Shown piece by piece: positions 43,163 through 50,088 of a stretch of 50,764 nucleotides of DNA. The position numbers were made by a program, and so were the translations under genes. Below the pieces are notes generated by a model that saw only the letters and a program-made list of their open reading frames with translations, was not told the origin of the DNA and made no database searches. The stretch is from Gammaproteobacteria bacterium (GTDB lineage Bacteria; Pseudomonadota; Gammaproteobacteria; SG8-11): assembly GCA_024641505.1 (NCBI GenBank), contig JAHECY010000018.1:1-50764 (forward strand), written 5' to 3'. Position 1 is the first letter of the stretch. Each line of letters starts with the position of its first letter.

Positions 43163-43828
43163 TTATGGTGCAAGGGTAGCGAGATACGCTTTTAATTCAT
43201 CAATATTTTGTTGGGAAACGGCATAATACGCTCCCATCAACTGAAACTCACCACCATACACACTGAGGTCTCTATACAAAGCGTTTGCGCGCAGCGCCAG
43301 GTTACTGGCGTGAAACGCCGAGCTCGCATCGTCCATGCCCGCCGCATGGCAAACGGCGCAGTTGCCTGCGTAATAGGCCTTGCCATTGGGAATCACCATA
43401 CTGCTGACAGTCACCAAGACCTTCCCCACCGCCTTGGTACCGGCGGCATCGGCCACGGTATAAGAGAATTGATCCAAACCCTCATAGGACATCGGCGGCA
43501 TATAGCTGAAGGAACCGTCGCCGTTATACACAATGGTGCCGCCCTGGGCGCCCACGGTGTCATAGGTATCGATCACCAAAGCGCCACCGTCGGATGCGGT
43601 GTCGTTGCTCAGCACCTCGACGATACCCAAAACACCAACGGGTACGCTCAAAGTGTCATCCACCACCACGGGGGGCACGGGACCGGCGACGGGTTGCGTG
43701 TGCAACGATGGCGGCGCCCGCTCGGTGCTGCTGTCAAAACAGGCCGCGAGTCCGGAAATCAACAACACCGGCAATAGACCTGCGACCGAGTGTATTCGGA
43801 ACTTGTGAAGTTTCTCTACCTTTTTCAT
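43163..43828 (-). CDS. lipoprotein with Ig-like domain and C-terminal monoheme cytochrome c
   Basis: The 221-residue protein has a lipoprotein signal with lipobox LAAC (modified Cys30, followed by Phe). A Pro-rich spacer leads to an Ig/cadherin-like domain (LSVPVGVLGIVEVLSNDTA to YEGLDQFSYTVADAAG). One CxxCH heme site (CAVCH, 157-161) follows in a small cytochrome c-like tail with a possible Met ligand near 198. It should be tethered by its lipid anchor to a membrane facing the periplasm or outer surface. The gene is 19 bp after the multi-cytochrome gene and surely cotranscribed, so it is a probable partner of that protein. Confidence 0.82.
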   Translation of the reverse strand: MKKVEKLHKFRIHSVAGLLPVLLISGLAACFDSSTERAPPSLHTQPVAGPVPPVVVDDTLSVPVGVLGIVEVLSNDTASDGGALVIDTYDTVGAQGGTIVYNGDGSFSYMPPMSYEGLDQFSYTVADAAGTKAVGKVLVTVSSMVIPNGKAYYAGNCAVCHAAGMDDASSAFHASNLALRANALYRDLSVYGGEFQLMGAYYAVSQQNIDELKAYLATLAP

Positions 43829-43847
43829 ATGCATCACTTAAAATGAT

Positions 43848-45929
43848 TTATTGCCTAGTCAAGAACTGGCCGATCAACGCGGTATCCGACGCGGCACCCG
43901 ATGTCGTGAGATAAGCGCGCAAGTGCCGCATCTCGGAAGCTCCGTTCAATGCGCTGTTAACCTCCGAGACCGAGGCGCCGGCGACCGCTTCTTCCGGTCC
44001 GCCCCGGCCATTGACGCCATGACAGGTCTCACAGTACACGTGATAAAGACCTGCGCCATCCGTTGGTTTGACGCCGCCACCGCCGGCCGCCAAATATCCT
44101 GCGACGGCTTGCGTTTGGGGTATGTTCAGCGTTAACGACCGCATCAGCCCCACCCGTGACAGCGCGCCGTTGACAAATGAACTCGATGCACCCGTCACTA
44201 CCTTGTACTTGCCCCCACGCCCATCCCGGCCGTGACACACGGCACAGAACACCGCGTATACTTCAGCGCCCGTCACCGGTGTCGCACCACTGCCACCGGC
44301 CACGAGATATCCGGCAATCAGTTGCGTTTGGGAAGGCGTCAACACCAGCGACTTCATCCAGGGTACGCCGGTAAGCGCATCACTGATCATGGCGGCAGGA
44401 GCGCCGGTTACCGAGGTGAATTTACCGCCGCGACCACCAGCCCCATGACAAACCATACAGAATACTTCATAGAGACCGGGACCACCCGTTGGTAACGGTG
44501 GTTCACCACCGGCATCCAGGTAAGCCGAAATCTTCTGGATTTGCGTCGTCGTCACCACCAGATTCCGCATCCAGTCGACGTCGTTGAGCGCCGCGGTAAT
44601 CTGCGCCGGCGCGGCACCGGTGACCCGTTTGAACTTGCCGCCTTGACCGCCGGTGCCGTGACATATCGCGCAGAATATCGGATACAGCCCGTTACCCTCG
44701 GTTGGCATGGCACCATCACCGCCCGCGCCGAGATACGCCGCCACTTTTTGTAATTCTTCCGCATCCAAAGCGATGGACTGCATATCTGTCACATTGGTAA
44801 TCGCTTGATCGATCATCTGCAATGCGGCGCCGGTCACACCGAATACCGCGCCGCCTCTGCCGCCCGCGCCATGGCAGGCCGAACAGAACATGCCATACAA
44901 TCCGGGGCCATCCGTAGGTCGCGTCGGTGGCTCACCACCGCCGGTCGCGAGAAACTGGGCAATCAACGCTATTTCGTCTGGCGACAGTGCGATATTCTGC
45001 ATAGCGGCAATGGACTGGAGAGCGGCTTCAATTTGCTGCACGCTTACGCCGGCAATGGCTTTAGCGGAACCGCCGGCGCCGTTCGCACCATGACAGGCAA
45101 AACAGTTGCTGTTGTAGAGCGCTTGACCTTGCGCGTTATCTGGACTGTTCGAGACCGTGACGCTCGTTGCCGCGGCTCCGGTCAGTCCGTCATTATCGGT
45201 GGCGGCGACTGTAACCGTATAGGTGCCTTCCGCCGCATACGCATGCAGCGGTTGCACGCCTTGCACCAATTCGGCGCCATCACCGAAATCCCAGAGATAA
45301 CGGACGATCGTACCGTCACCATCCACGGACTGACCGGCGTCGAATTGAATATTCGCACCGGGCAATGCGCTGTAGGGGCCACCGACCGCCGCTTGCGGCG
45401 CCAATTTCTTTTGGGTGGCAGTAACCTCGACGACCAGAGTTACCGACGCGGCATTGTCTCCGGTCATCTGCCCATCGCCATTTGCGGAAAGCGCGGTCGC
45501 GTACAATGTAACGTTACCGGGCACGGCCGGCGCGGTGTAACTAAACGTCCAGCCGACACCGCCGGACGCTGCGTTAAACGGTTGACTGTGCACCAGCTCA
45601 CGATCGCGCAAATCGACACCCGCCATCGTTGCCGTCAAGCTTCCGCTGCTGACACTGACATTCAGTCCCGCCAAATTGTTCTGGCCACCGGAGATTTGCA
45701 GATTAAAGCTGTTCACCGATCCGGCCTCAACAACGACCGGGCCGGTCAGCTCCAGATTCGGCACGATACCGCCGCTGTGACACAGAACGCAGGTGCCACC
45801 GCCATTCACCGCCGGATTGCCGGAATGTTCAGTGATACCCGTGGACAATGCCCAGACTTGTGGATGGCTCAGTAAAGCCACTACCAGGATGACAACACGT
45901 TTACAGAAAATAAGAATGGGTTTTGACAT
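43848..45929 (-). CDS. multidomain c-type cytochrome: N-terminal CxxCH module, PKD domain, six tandem monoheme domains
   Basis: The 693-residue protein starts with a Sec signal (VVILVVALLSHPQVWA). First comes a CxxCH module (CVLCH 47-51) in a beta domain reminiscent of 'choice-of-anchor V', followed by a PKD domain at about 176-260 (YLWDFGDGAE). Six small cytochrome c domains follow, with CxxCH at 276, 349, 420, 491, 562 and 633. A methionine sits exactly 34 residues after each first Cys (310, 383, 454, 525, 596, 667), fitting His/Met ligation. Successive spacings are 73, 71, 71, 71, 71. Seven hemes in total. It is the first gene of a two-gene operon divergent from mtrAB. The implied role is electron transfer across or outside the envelope. 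Confidence 0.9.
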   Translation of the reverse strand: MSKPILIFCKRVVILVVALLSHPQVWALSTGITEHSGNPAVNGGGTCVLCHSGGIVPNLELTGPVVVEAGSVNSFNLQISGGQNNLAGLNVSVSSGSLTATMAGVDLRDRELVHSQPFNAASGGVGWTFSYTAPAVPGNVTLYATALSANGDGQMTGDNAASVTLVVEVTATQKKLAPQAAVGGPYSALPGANIQFDAGQSVDGDGTIVRYLWDFGDGAELVQGVQPLHAYAAEGTYTVTVAATDNDGLTGAAATSVTVSNSPDNAQGQALYNSNCFACHGANGAGGSAKAIAGVSVQQIEAALQSIAAMQNIALSPDEIALIAQFLATGGGEPPTRPTDGPGLYGMFCSACHGAGGRGGAVFGVTGAALQMIDQAITNVTDMQSIALDAEELQKVAAYLGAGGDGAMPTEGNGLYPIFCAICHGTGGQGGKFKRVTGAAPAQITAALNDVDWMRNLVVTTTQIQKISAYLDAGGEPPLPTGGPGLYEVFCMVCHGAGGRGGKFTSVTGAPAAMISDALTGVPWMKSLVLTPSQTQLIAGYLVAGGSGATPVTGAEVYAVFCAVCHGRDGRGGKYKVVTGASSSFVNGALSRVGLMRSLTLNIPQTQAVAGYLAAGGGGVKPTDGAGLYHVYCETCHGVNGRGGPEEAVAGASVSEVNSALNGASEMRHLRAYLTTSGAASDTALIGQFLTRQ
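43851..45128 (-). repeat. six tandem 71-codon cytochrome c repeats inside the multidomain cytochrome gene
   Basis: Within the gene, units of 213 bp (219 bp for the first interval) repeat six times; the first Cys codons begin at 45104, 44885, 44672, 44459, 44246 and 44033 on the minus strand. Each unit has CHG-x-x-G-x-GG after the heme motif, a VTGA-type loop, the Met ligand and an AYL-x-AGG linker. The tight spacing points to duplication of a single-domain gene. Confidence 0.9.
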
Positions 45930-46344
45930 TGGCTGACTCTGCGAACATAAGATATGTGGAACTTGTGGTTAACTGGTCCATCAGCGCTTGTAAAAAGACT
46001 AGCACCGTTCACCCGGCGAATGAACACTATTTGCCACAATAATTTTTTATCACGGTGTTAATGAAATGTTACTTATATCAACCCACACAAATATAACTGT
46101 GCGCACCCGCCCATATACATTTCATAGCTCAACCACGGAATTTACATACCTCGATTTTATGTAGCCCTCTATTTTTTTATGAGCGCATAAAGCTCCACTG
46201 TGTGTGCTTATGGATACCGACCACACCGGTGGCACGACTTCAACCGCGACAACCGATATACCGACTCTCATCTGGTATTTATCACCGTATATTCGTATTA
46301 TCATTGGAAAACGATGGATTCATGTCAGCGGGTGCTTTGACCAA
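45930..46344. promoter_or_regulatory. 415-bp divergent control region between the cytochrome operon and mtrAB
   Basis: AT-rich spacer with starts on both sides (45929 minus, 46345 plus). Small dyads include TTATG-AGCG-CATAA (46177-46190). No convincing sigma-70 promoter, FNR or Fur-type box could be called by eye; TTTTTTT tracts and ATAT-rich DNA lie near the middle. The open frame from 46204 to 46344 in front of mtrA is not supported as coding. Confidence 0.4.
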
Positions 46345-47322
46345 ATGAAAAACTGCAAATCGCCATCTTCAAGCCGAAGCCCTAAATTGAATATTCTGTG
46401 GTGCGTTACCGGCTGCCTGCTTGTGATCCTGGCACACGCAGAGACACCGCCAACCCCACCCGCCGAGACGCCGGCCAATCTATATACCCGAAAAGGCGCC
46501 GACACCTGCCTGAAATGTCATGATCAGGATTACAAATATCCGGTGCTGCAGATTTTCTACAGCAAACATGGAAACCGCAAGGACGCACGCAGCCCCATGG
46601 CCCAGTTTCAATGCGAATCCTGCCATGGTCCTGGGCGTGCCCACGCCACCGAACCTAAAGTTGGCGCGCAGCGCGCGTCGATTATCGCTTTCGGCGCGAA
46701 CTCCCGGACCAGCCCTGACCAGCAGAACGCCATGTGCCTGCAGTGTCATCGCGATCACCAACGAGCGCGCTGGACCGGCAGTCAACACGATACCGTGAAC
46801 GTGCGTTGCGTAGACTGTCATACCGTGCATGTGCGTCATGATCCGGTGTTCACGCAAGATCAGAGCGGCATCTGCTATCGTTGTCACAAGCAGCAACAGG
46901 CGGTATTCGCCCGCAACTCCGCACATCCGGTGCGTCAGGGGAAAATGCTATGTTCCCAGTGCCATGATCCGCATGGCAGCAACGCGAAAGCGCTGCTGAA
47001 AACCGCGACGAAAAACGATACCTGTTATCGTTGTCACGCGGAAAAGCGCGGCCCCTTTCTGTGGACGCATGCACCGGTCGCGGAGGATTGCGGTTTGTGC
47101 CACGAACATCATGGGTCGATGAACGCTCCATTATTGAAAAAACGCGCGCCCTGGTTATGCCAGCAGTGTCACAGCGTTACCGGTCATCCGAGCATTTCCT
47201 ATGACAGCACGGGCTTGCCGGCACAAACGCCTAGCGCCTTTTTACTGGCGAAAAGCTGTCTCAACTGCCACTTTCAGGTGCACGGTTCCAATCACCCGTC
47301 GGGTGTCAAACTGATGCGATAG
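46345..47322 (+). CDS. mtrA: decaheme c-type cytochrome, MtrA/DmsE family
   Basis: MtrA is a periplasmic decaheme cytochrome that threads through the MtrB porin to carry electrons across the outer membrane. The 325-residue protein has a signal peptide (ILWCVTGCLLVILAHAE) and ten CxxCH sites with first cysteines at 55, 90, 131, 155, 177, 203, 227, 249, 272 and 305. This is the MtrA/DmsE arrangement, and the length compares with 333 in Shewanella. Extra His residues between sites suit bis-His ligation. The ATG at 46345 begins the signal peptide. It is followed 13 bp later by mtrB. Direction of electron flow (metal reduction or Fe(II)/cathode oxidation, as in MtoA/PioA) cannot be read. Confidence 0.93.
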   Translation: MKNCKSPSSSRSPKLNILWCVTGCLLVILAHAETPPTPPAETPANLYTRKGADTCLKCHDQDYKYPVLQIFYSKHGNRKDARSPMAQFQCESCHGPGRAHATEPKVGAQRASIIAFGANSRTSPDQQNAMCLQCHRDHQRARWTGSQHDTVNVRCVDCHTVHVRHDPVFTQDQSGICYRCHKQQQAVFARNSAHPVRQGKMLCSQCHDPHGSNAKALLKTATKNDTCYRCHAEKRGPFLWTHAPVAEDCGLCHEHHGSMNAPLLKKRAPWLCQQCHSVTGHPSISYDSTGLPAQTPSAFLLAKSCLNCHFQVHGSNHPSGVKLMR

Positions 47323-47335
47323 TGAGGGCTTGATG

Positions 47336-49468
47336 ATGAGCGGCCACAAAATACCAAGTATCAAACCGGTGGGTTTCTCGGGAGCATGTTTGTTGCTGTT
47401 GCAGTACTCCCCAGGCCTCGCCGCGCAGGATATTTATCATCAGGCCGACATGCAGGCCATTACCGCCAACTGGATCTGTGAATGGTGCCCGAAAGTGGAC
47501 GAACATCCCGACATCGCCGAAGTAAGCGCTGGTGTCAGCGTGGTGAGCAATGACTCTTACGCGTACGGCAATTATTCCGGCCTGGATCAAAAAGGCGCCC
47601 ACCTGATCACCGACCTGGATTATCTGCATCGTGACCCACAAGGAAATTATGTTCAACTGGAAGGAAATGATCTGGGCCTGGACTCCCGGCATTTGGCATC
47701 ACGCGGCGGTAAACCCGGCCGGCTAGAGATGGCGCTGATCTATGATCAACTGCCCACATTAAAATCCGACACCAGCCGCACACCTTATGAAGGTGGCGCG
47801 GATCAACGGCTGCCAGGCACCTGGGTGACGTCTGCCACCACTGATGGCATGTCGGAACTTGGCACTGCCTTGCACCGGAACAACATCGACACCTTGCGCC
47901 GCGACTACCGGCTGAGCGCCGACTATGCGGCCACTTCCGATCTCTCATACAGCCTGGAGTTATGGCGCGACACTAAAACCGGTGGCAAAGCGACCGGAGT
48001 CGCGCTCGGTACTTCTTTCGCCACCGCGCGCAGCGTGATCCTGGTAGCGCCCATCGACCACGTTACCGATCAAGGCGAAGCCAGTCTGAACTATCGGAAC
48101 GCGCAATGGCAAGGTACGCTCAAATACGCGTTCTCGTCGTTTCAAAACCAAAATACCGCATTGCAATGGGACAATGCCTACAGCCAACCCGCGGCGACCG
48201 AGCGTGGGCAGGCCGCACTTGAACCGGACAACAACATGCAACAACTCGCTCTTTCCGGCAGCTATCGGATCAGCAAAACCACCCTGGCGCATGCTCTCAT
48301 TGCTTATGGACGCGCAGAACAAGACGCGACTTTTCTCCCTTATACCAGCAATACAAACCTGAATGCCAATCCTCTGCCGAGCACCTCGCTGCACGGTCGC
48401 ATCAACAGCTATGACCTGGATTTATCGGTCACCAGCGGCATTGATCAACTCAAGCTGAAAGCACAATACGGCCAACATGAACAGGCGAATGCCACTGCGC
48501 GCGCGACCTACGACTACGTCACTGCCGACACGGCGCTCAACTCCAGTGCGCGCGCCAATTTCCCCTACAGTTTCCGGCGGCGCAACCTGGCACTGGAGGC
48601 ACGTTATATGTTACCAGCGCATCACCAACTGGCGCTGACCTTTGAGCATGAAGCCAATGAGCGCACCTACCAGGAGGTAACCACTACCCGGGAAAACACC
48701 CTGACCACCGCCTATGCTAATCAGGTGTCACCAGACCTTGCGCTGCATTTCAGCCTGGGACGGCGGCAGCGCACCGGTGACGATTACCGGGCGGTGGAGG
48801 AAGTCACGCCGGCGGAAAATCCGTTACTGAAAAAATATAATCTCGCTGATCGCACCCGGAACCTGGCGAATGCCAGCGCCAGCTACACGCCACTGGCCAA
48901 TCTCCAACTCGCGTTGACCGTGGATTATGCGCAGGACGACTATAGCCATTCGGCTCTGGGCTTGCAGGACAGCTCCGAGAACAATACCGCTCTTGACCTG
49001 CACTACGCCCTGAGCCGCGCCCTGGCACTGAATACCAATTATGCGGTAACCAATATCGCGTCTCGCCAGAGCGGCAATCAGAGTAGCGCACAGCCGAATT
49101 GGCGCATGGACAATGATGAGCGTATGACGGCCGCCGGACTGGGGGTTCACTATGACATCATCGCCGATAAACTTAACTTGGCATTCGAATACGGTTACGC
49201 CGCCGCCCGAGGCGATATCACGGTATCCACGGGCACGCCATTCCCCGCGCTTACCAACGAGCGCCATACCTACAAAGTGTCGAGCGACTATCAACTGAAT
49301 CAACAGGCGACGGTACAAGTGTCCTATCAATATGAGAAATACAAAGCAAAGAACTGGGGCGACGACGGCAGCGTGGCGAATACCCTGCCCAACGTGCTGA
49401 CCCTCGGCGAAGTAAGTCCCTACTATGATGTCGGGCTCCTGGCAATCGCCGTGCGCTACGCCTTCTAG
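47336..49468 (+). CDS. mtrB: MtrB/PioB-family outer-membrane porin for decaheme cytochrome
   Basis: The 710-residue protein is the outer-membrane barrel that sheathes MtrA. After a signal peptide it has the family's N-terminal C-x-x-C (Cys48, Cys51 in WICEWCPK), which in Shewanella MtrB is needed for function. The remainder is long runs of alternating strands with aromatic girdles, ending in VRYAF with a terminal Phe recognised by the BAM machinery. GAGGG is seven bases before the ATG at 47336; TTG and ATG codons just upstream are less well placed. It is coupled 13 bp behind mtrA. Confidence 0.9.
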   Translation: MSGHKIPSIKPVGFSGACLLLLQYSPGLAAQDIYHQADMQAITANWICEWCPKVDEHPDIAEVSAGVSVVSNDSYAYGNYSGLDQKGAHLITDLDYLHRDPQGNYVQLEGNDLGLDSRHLASRGGKPGRLEMALIYDQLPTLKSDTSRTPYEGGADQRLPGTWVTSATTDGMSELGTALHRNNIDTLRRDYRLSADYAATSDLSYSLELWRDTKTGGKATGVALGTSFATARSVILVAPIDHVTDQGEASLNYRNAQWQGTLKYAFSSFQNQNTALQWDNAYSQPAATERGQAALEPDNNMQQLALSGSYRISKTTLAHALIAYGRAEQDATFLPYTSNTNLNANPLPSTSLHGRINSYDLDLSVTSGIDQLKLKAQYGQHEQANATARATYDYVTADTALNSSARANFPYSFRRRNLALEARYMLPAHHQLALTFEHEANERTYQEVTTTRENTLTTAYANQVSPDLALHFSLGRRQRTGDDYRAVEEVTPAENPLLKKYNLADRTRNLANASASYTPLANLQLALTVDYAQDDYSHSALGLQDSSENNTALDLHYALSRALALNTNYAVTNIASRQSGNQSSAQPNWRMDNDERMTAAGLGVHYDIIADKLNLAFEYGYAAARGDITVSTGTPFPALTNERHTYKVSSDYQLNQQATVQVSYQYEKYKAKNWGDDGSVANTLPNVLTLGEVSPYYDVGLLAIAVRYAF

Positions 49469-49494: not shown

Positions 49495-50088
49495 CTAGTG
49501 GGGACTGGCATAAAAATGAAGCAGCTGCTCGATGCCGTCTTGGCCCGCTTCCTGTTCCAGCAACTTAAGCTTGGTAATCATCATGGGATTGACCCGGCGC
49601 GTATTATCGAGGTAAGCCGTAAGTGCCTGGCGTAAATAGGGCGTCCATTGTCCGGCCAGAATTCCGTAGTTGTTTTCCGTGATACGTCCGCCGTTCTCAT
49701 GGCATTTCTCACAATATTTAGCATGTAACAACGCACCTTTTTGCGCAAGTGCAGCATCAAACTCTTGAGTGCGCGCCACAAATTTCTGCTTGCCGTAAAA
49801 TTCAGCCAATTGCGCAATATCAGCTTCCCCGAGCGTATGGGTAAACTGCTTCATCATAGGTGAATTACGTCCCTCGTTCTTGTACGCATCCATGACATGT
49901 GCAAAATACTCAGGCGTAATACCCGCAATCGAAGGCACCCCGGAGTTGGCGCTGTTGCCATCCACACCGTGACACATAGTGCAAGGTTGTACCAACGCCT
50001 GGATGTCACTCGCGTAAGCAGGCACCATCATAACCCACAACAATTGACTGATCGTTACCGCCATCAGTCGTACGCTTGAATTAAGCAT
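49495..50088 (-). CDS. diheme cytochrome c (c4/c553-type)
   Basis: The 197-residue periplasmic protein has a signal peptide (LLWVMMVPAYA-S) and two cytochrome c domains with CxxCH at 36-40 (CTMCH) and 126-130 (CEKCH). Met residues near 78 and 168-170 are candidate sixth ligands. The sequence GVDGNSANSGVPSIAG resembles cytochrome c4 and related electron carriers. It could shuttle electrons between the inner membrane or terminal oxidase and MtrA. It converges on mtrB, with 26 bp between stops. AGGAGT precedes the ATG. Confidence 0.9.
   Translation of the reverse strand: MLNSSVRLMAVTISQLLWVMMVPAYASDIQALVQPCTMCHGVDGNSANSGVPSIAGITPEYFAHVMDAYKNEGRNSPMMKQFTHTLGEADIAQLAEFYGKQKFVARTQEFDAALAQKGALLHAKYCEKCHENGGRITENNYGILAGQWTPYLRQALTAYLDNTRRVNPMMITKLKLLEQEAGQDGIEQLLHFYASPH

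Follow-up and report, generated by a model that had tools for sequence, protein, structure and literature searches.

The locus and the bead-string protein

The window analysed here is a stretch of 50,764 nucleotides (contig JAHECY010000018.1), towards the end of which lies a gene for a multiheme protein with a string of monoheme domains, here called beads, next to genes for further cytochromes and an outer-membrane barrel. The genome of the window is designated G000, and the other G-numbers denote other genomes of the sampled class. The features are, by position:

43163..43837, minus strand: lipoprotein-like monoheme protein with a Big_9 domain and one CxxCH (profile match; orthologs in G002 and G304)
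43848..45929, minus strand: string cytochrome gene, 693 aa (open reading frame, CxxCH positions, Pfam and NCBIfam profiles)
43851..44072, minus strand: bead D6, terminal type, with an insertion after the Met (64% to G002 D8, 61% to G304 D5)
44073..44285, minus strand: bead D5, penultimate type (57-59% to G002 D7 and G304 D4)
44286..44498, minus strand: bead D4, variable middle (single-bead model with pLDDT 85; fold match to PgcA domain 1)
44499..44711, minus strand: bead D3, variable middle (bead identity comparison)
44712..44924, minus strand: bead D2, ortholog of D2 in G002 (63%) and G304 (61%)
44925..45143, minus strand: bead D1, ortholog of D1 in G002 (52%) and G304 (49%)
45144..45419, minus strand: PKD domain, aa 171-262 (PF18911, PKD_4, E 6e-21, match aa 177-255; collagenase PKD structures)
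45420..45848, minus strand: choice-of-anchor-V module, aa 28-170, first CxxCH at aa 47 (NF041895, E 2e-39)
46204..47322, plus strand: DmsE/MtrA-family decaheme cytochrome (TIGR03508, 293.6 bits, cut-off 192)
47330..49468, plus strand: MtrB/PioB outer-membrane barrel (TIGR03509, 402.5 bits, cut-off 240)
49495..50088, minus strand: PdsA-like periplasmic diheme cytochrome (NF049874, E 2.8e-27, under the curated cut-off with 95.8 of 330 bits)

From its N-terminus, the string protein consists of a signal peptide, the choice-of-anchor-V module with the heme site CVLCH, the PKD domain and six monoheme beads, and no C-terminal membrane anchor was seen in its 693 residues. The NF041895 match spans residues 19-164 and encloses the first CxxCH (135 bits against the NCBIfam cut-off of 42), while Pfam recovers six Cytochrome_CBB3 (PF13442) stretches and one PKD_4. 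The CxxCH motifs stand at residues 47, 276, 349, 420, 491, 562 and 633. Recounted in the open reading frame, the last six are spaced by 73, 71, 71, 71 and 71 residues and each has a Met at exactly +34 from its first Cys (6/6), just as an earlier note on this DNA had it, and the profiles of both databases agree with its description of six small His/Met domains in series with an extra N-terminal CxxCH module and a PKD domain. Its wording of near-identical beads was too strong, as the window beads are 31-55% identical to one another. The linkers between them are short and Gly/Pro-rich.

Judged by the curated profile cut-offs, which the adjacent MtrA and MtrB both exceed, the neighbours of the string gene are an MtrAB porin-cytochrome conduit. 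The string gene is divergent from mtrA-mtrB and does not form one operon with them, and a scan for promoters and terminators found sites no more numerous than in shuffled sequence. A gap of 10 bp separates the string gene from the downstream monoheme gene, which was seen only in the window genome, G002 and G304; the Cys that closes the signal peptide of the monoheme product is conserved in all three, and this Big_9 protein with one heme is likely a lipoprotein.

Bead fold, heme ligands and the likeness to PgcA

Across eight genomes, 20 aligned beads share invariant Gly, Tyr, CxxCH-Gly and Met positions, and by this comparison the repeated pattern is not due to chance and the domains are homologous. 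The single bead D4, modelled with the six aligned window beads as input, reached a pLDDT of 85, and the closest stand-alone solved domains found with Foldseek were the PgcA monoheme domains 8qj6 and 8qjg, with E-values no better than about 1e-3 to 1e-2 for this very short protein. Superposition on 8qj6 (PgcA domain 1) gave TM 0.72/0.80 and an rmsd of 1.8 A. When a bead of G181 was aligned with PgcA domain III, its Met fell on the His of VSGHKGITL, which corresponds to His491 and lies 32 residues past the proximal His, the interval between the heme ligands His459 and His491 of that domain (PMC11520253). Given this alignment, the Met at +34 is very likely the sixth heme ligand of the beads. The model of a lone bead and the ligand position of the Met support the serial small His/Met domains proposed in the earlier note. 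A two-bead AlphaFold2 model had a pLDDT of 42.

Strings of tethered monoheme beads are a known design, since each bead resembles the His/Met domains of PgcA, the GSU1761 protein of Geobacter sulfurreducens, which has paralogs with 3-14 hemes and a heme number that varies between species (PMC11520253, PMC5732950). PgcA shares with the string protein the arrangement of same-fold monoheme beads in one secreted chain and has His/Met ligation in its beads I and II, which in the string beads is read from the alignment alone, through the invariant Met on the distal-ligand position of PgcA III. The two differ in their linkers, which are of the long PT type ((PT)x or (PA)x) in PgcA and short in the string protein, and in the terminal bead, which is bis-His in PgcA and keeps the Met in the string. 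PgcA can be attached to lipid at a site that the string protein lacks; the string protein in turn carries choice-of-anchor-V and PKD modules in front and is encoded next to MtrAB. In addition, an acidic residue seven positions past the proximal His of PgcA I/II seems to be replaced mostly by Gly in the string beads. The relation seen between the two proteins in sequence went no further than the cytochrome c fold that they have in common.

Other families share parts of the design. Surface proteins of the choice-of-anchor-V or MXAN_6652 type have the N-terminal NF041895 domain with CxxCH in common with the string protein, but their family model is silent on tandem cytochrome beads and the string protein stays below the MXAN_6652 cut-off (109.7 of 200 bits). 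The MtrCAB system of Shewanella, with the MtrC and OmcA family, shares the MtrA-MtrB core and the genomic slot of an extracellular cytochrome; MtrC is a packed bis-His decaheme, whereas the string consists of His/Met monoheme beads, and the OmcA/MtrC family profile TIGR03507 does not match the string protein, in which six of the seven CxxCH have a Met at the ligand position. MtoAB and PioAB of iron oxidisers and phototrophs likewise have the MtrAB core without MtrC, and no report of a bead-string gene in them was found in PMC8805035, which proposes that outside cytochromes vary around a constant MtrAB core.

Distribution of the cassette and absence of MtrC

At E <= 1e-22, bead strings were found in 6 of 369 genomes of the class, and in five of these six (the window genome, G002, G304, G181 and G242, from four families) the string is encoded beside MtrA and MtrB, with the MtrB of G002 cut by the contig end. 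All five MtrAB-adjacent strings have the layout of choice-of-anchor-V module, PKD domain and string, with six beads in the window, eight in G002, five each in G304 and G181 and three in G242. A NapC/NirT-family tetraheme is encoded beside the PdsA-like gene in G181 and G242. By genome, string and MtrB co-occur with a Fisher p of 1e-5, uncorrected for kinship. A thin phylum-wide sample of 398 genomes, searched at E 1e-20, contained no string outside the window's own genome, and the sole match in a scan of genome contigs for named relatives was a PKD domain in Aquimarina.

The beads at the two ends of the string are conserved in position, as D1, D2, D5 and D6 of the window are counterparts of D1, D2, D7 and D8 in G002 (52-64%) and of D1, D2, D4 and D5 in G304 (49-61%), and between these ends lie two middle beads in the window, four in G002 and one in G304. 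In these three genomes the string thus seems to grow or shrink in the middle and to retain its ends, which suggests that the end beads have distinct jobs. The N-terminal heme site of the eight-bead ortholog G002:C1 (L023 2211-4709) is CGTVCH, a CxxxCH instead of a CxxCH.

Bead proteins also occur in other arrangements. G049:C5 (L024 10549-14844) is a 1432-residue protein in which a CxxCH module at the N-terminus and PKD domains come with 13 monoheme beads of alternating types, with the Met at +30 or +35 and no MtrAB nearby; as this string is not encoded near MtrB, bead strings would also work without MtrAB. The choice-of-anchor-V protein G004:C156 (L060 4576-5739) ends in an Arg-rich C-terminal tail and has two beads with His instead of the distal Met, which may be bis-His like domain III of PgcA, and paralogs in G003 (L025 2-2866) and G002 (L026 330-2324) combine many PKD domains and two or three beads with a GlyGly-CTERM-like tail. 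Inspected by eye, five of seven MtrAB-unlinked paralogs (G002:C128 and those of G003, G040, G288 and G004) have hydrophobic, Arg-rich C-terminal tails, mostly of the GlyGly-CTERM type, and such an anchor tail is absent from all five MtrAB-linked strings. The type II secretion protein GspD is present above the cut-off in all five string-MtrAB genomes.

No MtrC (TIGR03507) above the cut-off was found in G002, G304, G181 or G242, of which the G304 and G242 genomes are 99% complete, and the MtrC of the window genome is confined to a second locus apart from the string, the classical MtrC-MtrA-MtrB-PdsA-like cluster G000:C209 (L061 321-6649). A similar cluster exists in G001 (L062), where the MtrA of C213 (4185-5216) was counted with only nine CxxCH because of an ambiguous codon (X) in one heme motif, CYTXCH. 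Among the MtrB loci compared, a decaheme in the MtrC layout stands at six, a string at five and neither at most others; MtrAB without MtrC is therefore common, and the absence of MtrC alone is no proof of a substitute. In the MtrB tree, the four intact string-linked MtrB, a small set from which the cut G002 sequence was left out, group as a single clade with full support (100/99), separate from the MtrB that are linked to MtrC. The two MtrB of the window genome fall on different sides of this tree, that of C209 with the MtrC-linked ones. The MtrA tree is compatible, with weaker support (78/85).

A candidate outside terminal for MtrAB

The conserved cassette, the absence of MtrC, the single MtrB clade, the lack of anchor tails and the presence of GspD together argue that the string protein probably serves the MtrA-MtrB conduit next to it as partner outside the cell and replaces the decaheme MtrC. 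With somewhat less assurance, we lean towards porin-cytochrome conduits of a distinct and ancient class, where a His/Met string of variable length, with fixed ends and an expandable middle, would stand in for MtrC and, in part of the group, a lipoprotein monoheme would act as coupler.

We infer the following path for such a conduit. Electrons would be exchanged between inner-membrane carriers, the periplasmic PdsA-like diheme and MtrA inside MtrB, from MtrA with the lipoprotein monoheme and/or the proximal part of the string, and along successive His/Met beads to the outer ones, which might contact an external donor or acceptor such as a mineral, Fe(II), an electrode or another cytochrome. The string would be secreted, probably through type II secretion as for MtrC, which docks on heme 10 of MtrA, a heme exposed for an outside partner (PMC7198977). 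As the string has no anchor of its own, MtrAB and the lipoprotein encoded beside it might keep it on the cell surface. Contacts would be made by the conserved beads at the ends (first, second, penultimate and last), and the middle beads, free to change in number, would set the reach. Electrons would pass from one bead to the next when the flexibly linked domains collide, in the manner of PgcA, and not through a rigid heme stack. Either direction may apply: four of the genomes (G000, G002, G304 and G242) carry RuBisCO genes, so electron uptake by string-MtrAB systems is possible.

Several points count against the string as partner of MtrAB, namely its divergent gene, the restriction of the lipoprotein gene to three genomes, the 13-bead string of G049 that is not near MtrB, the four-sequence MtrB clade and the potentials, as His/Met hemes are usually higher in potential than the bis-His hemes of MtrC. 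For PgcA beads, potentials of -48 to -106 mV have been reported (PMC11520253). Moreover, MtrAB and MtoAB systems without MtrC are common, at most of the loci compared, and the conduit may therefore need no partner.

Distinctly less probable is an accessory role, in which the string would be a PgcA-like extracellular cytochrome, released or loosely bound and not docked on MtrA, that uses the MtrAB pathway and distributes electrons across minerals or from cell to cell, with contact made by MtrAB or the lipoprotein. The bead fold is nearest to PgcA, which is extracellular and active when supplied as a soluble protein (PMC5732950) and whose beads are tethered, not packed (PMC11520253); the missing anchor and the paralogs without MtrAB also fit this role. 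However, the close association with a single MtrB clade, and the lack of MtrC there, suggest more than an accessory, and the short Gly/Pro-rich linkers differ from the long PT linkers of PgcA.

The earlier note had proposed a periplasm-spanning or surface electron wire, and did not mention the conserved MtrAB cassette, which tells most about the string. Surface electron transfer fits the MtrAB context, but a relay spanning the periplasm from the inner membrane to MtrA appears improbable, even if monoheme beads often occur in the periplasm and the protein has a signal peptide: the outer-membrane conduit already comes with a PdsA-like periplasmic carrier, to which two loci add the NapC/NirT-family tetraheme, modules such as PKD and choice-of-anchor typically belong to proteins that are secreted or on the surface, and the paralogs have sorting-type C-termini. 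The term wire is doubtful, because the known analogue PgcA relies on tethered diffusion and the two-bead model was of low confidence. A heme-rich surface adhesin or a redox or O2 sensor that merely lies beside mtrAB, with electron transport not its primary role, would suit the adhesion-type PKD and Ig-like (Big_9) domains of the cassette, but it is the least probable reading given that both heme ligands are kept in all beads of the MtrAB-linked strings and that the MtrAB association is conserved across families.

In the open-licence papers searched, we found none that combines choice-of-anchor V with a cytochrome or PKD, monoheme and MtrB together, and no bead string in the slot of MtrC. The earlier view that the architecture had not been described does not hold for the design, given PgcA and its 3-14-heme paralogs (PMC11520253); what appears to be new, as judged from five loci compared between genomes, is the place of such a string beside MtrAB, in the slot of MtrC.

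If the string protein is indeed the partner of MtrAB, its outside terminal would be exchangeable, with flexible monoheme beads taking the place of a decaheme, and the Mtr and PgcA designs would be linked. Among the outside terminals of MtrAB, packed decahemes like MtrC have been studied best, and a string in their place would explain how some genomes with MtrAB and without MtrC make contact with solid substrates. In addition, the natural variants with 3, 5, 5, 6 and 8 beads would allow reach to be compared with rate.
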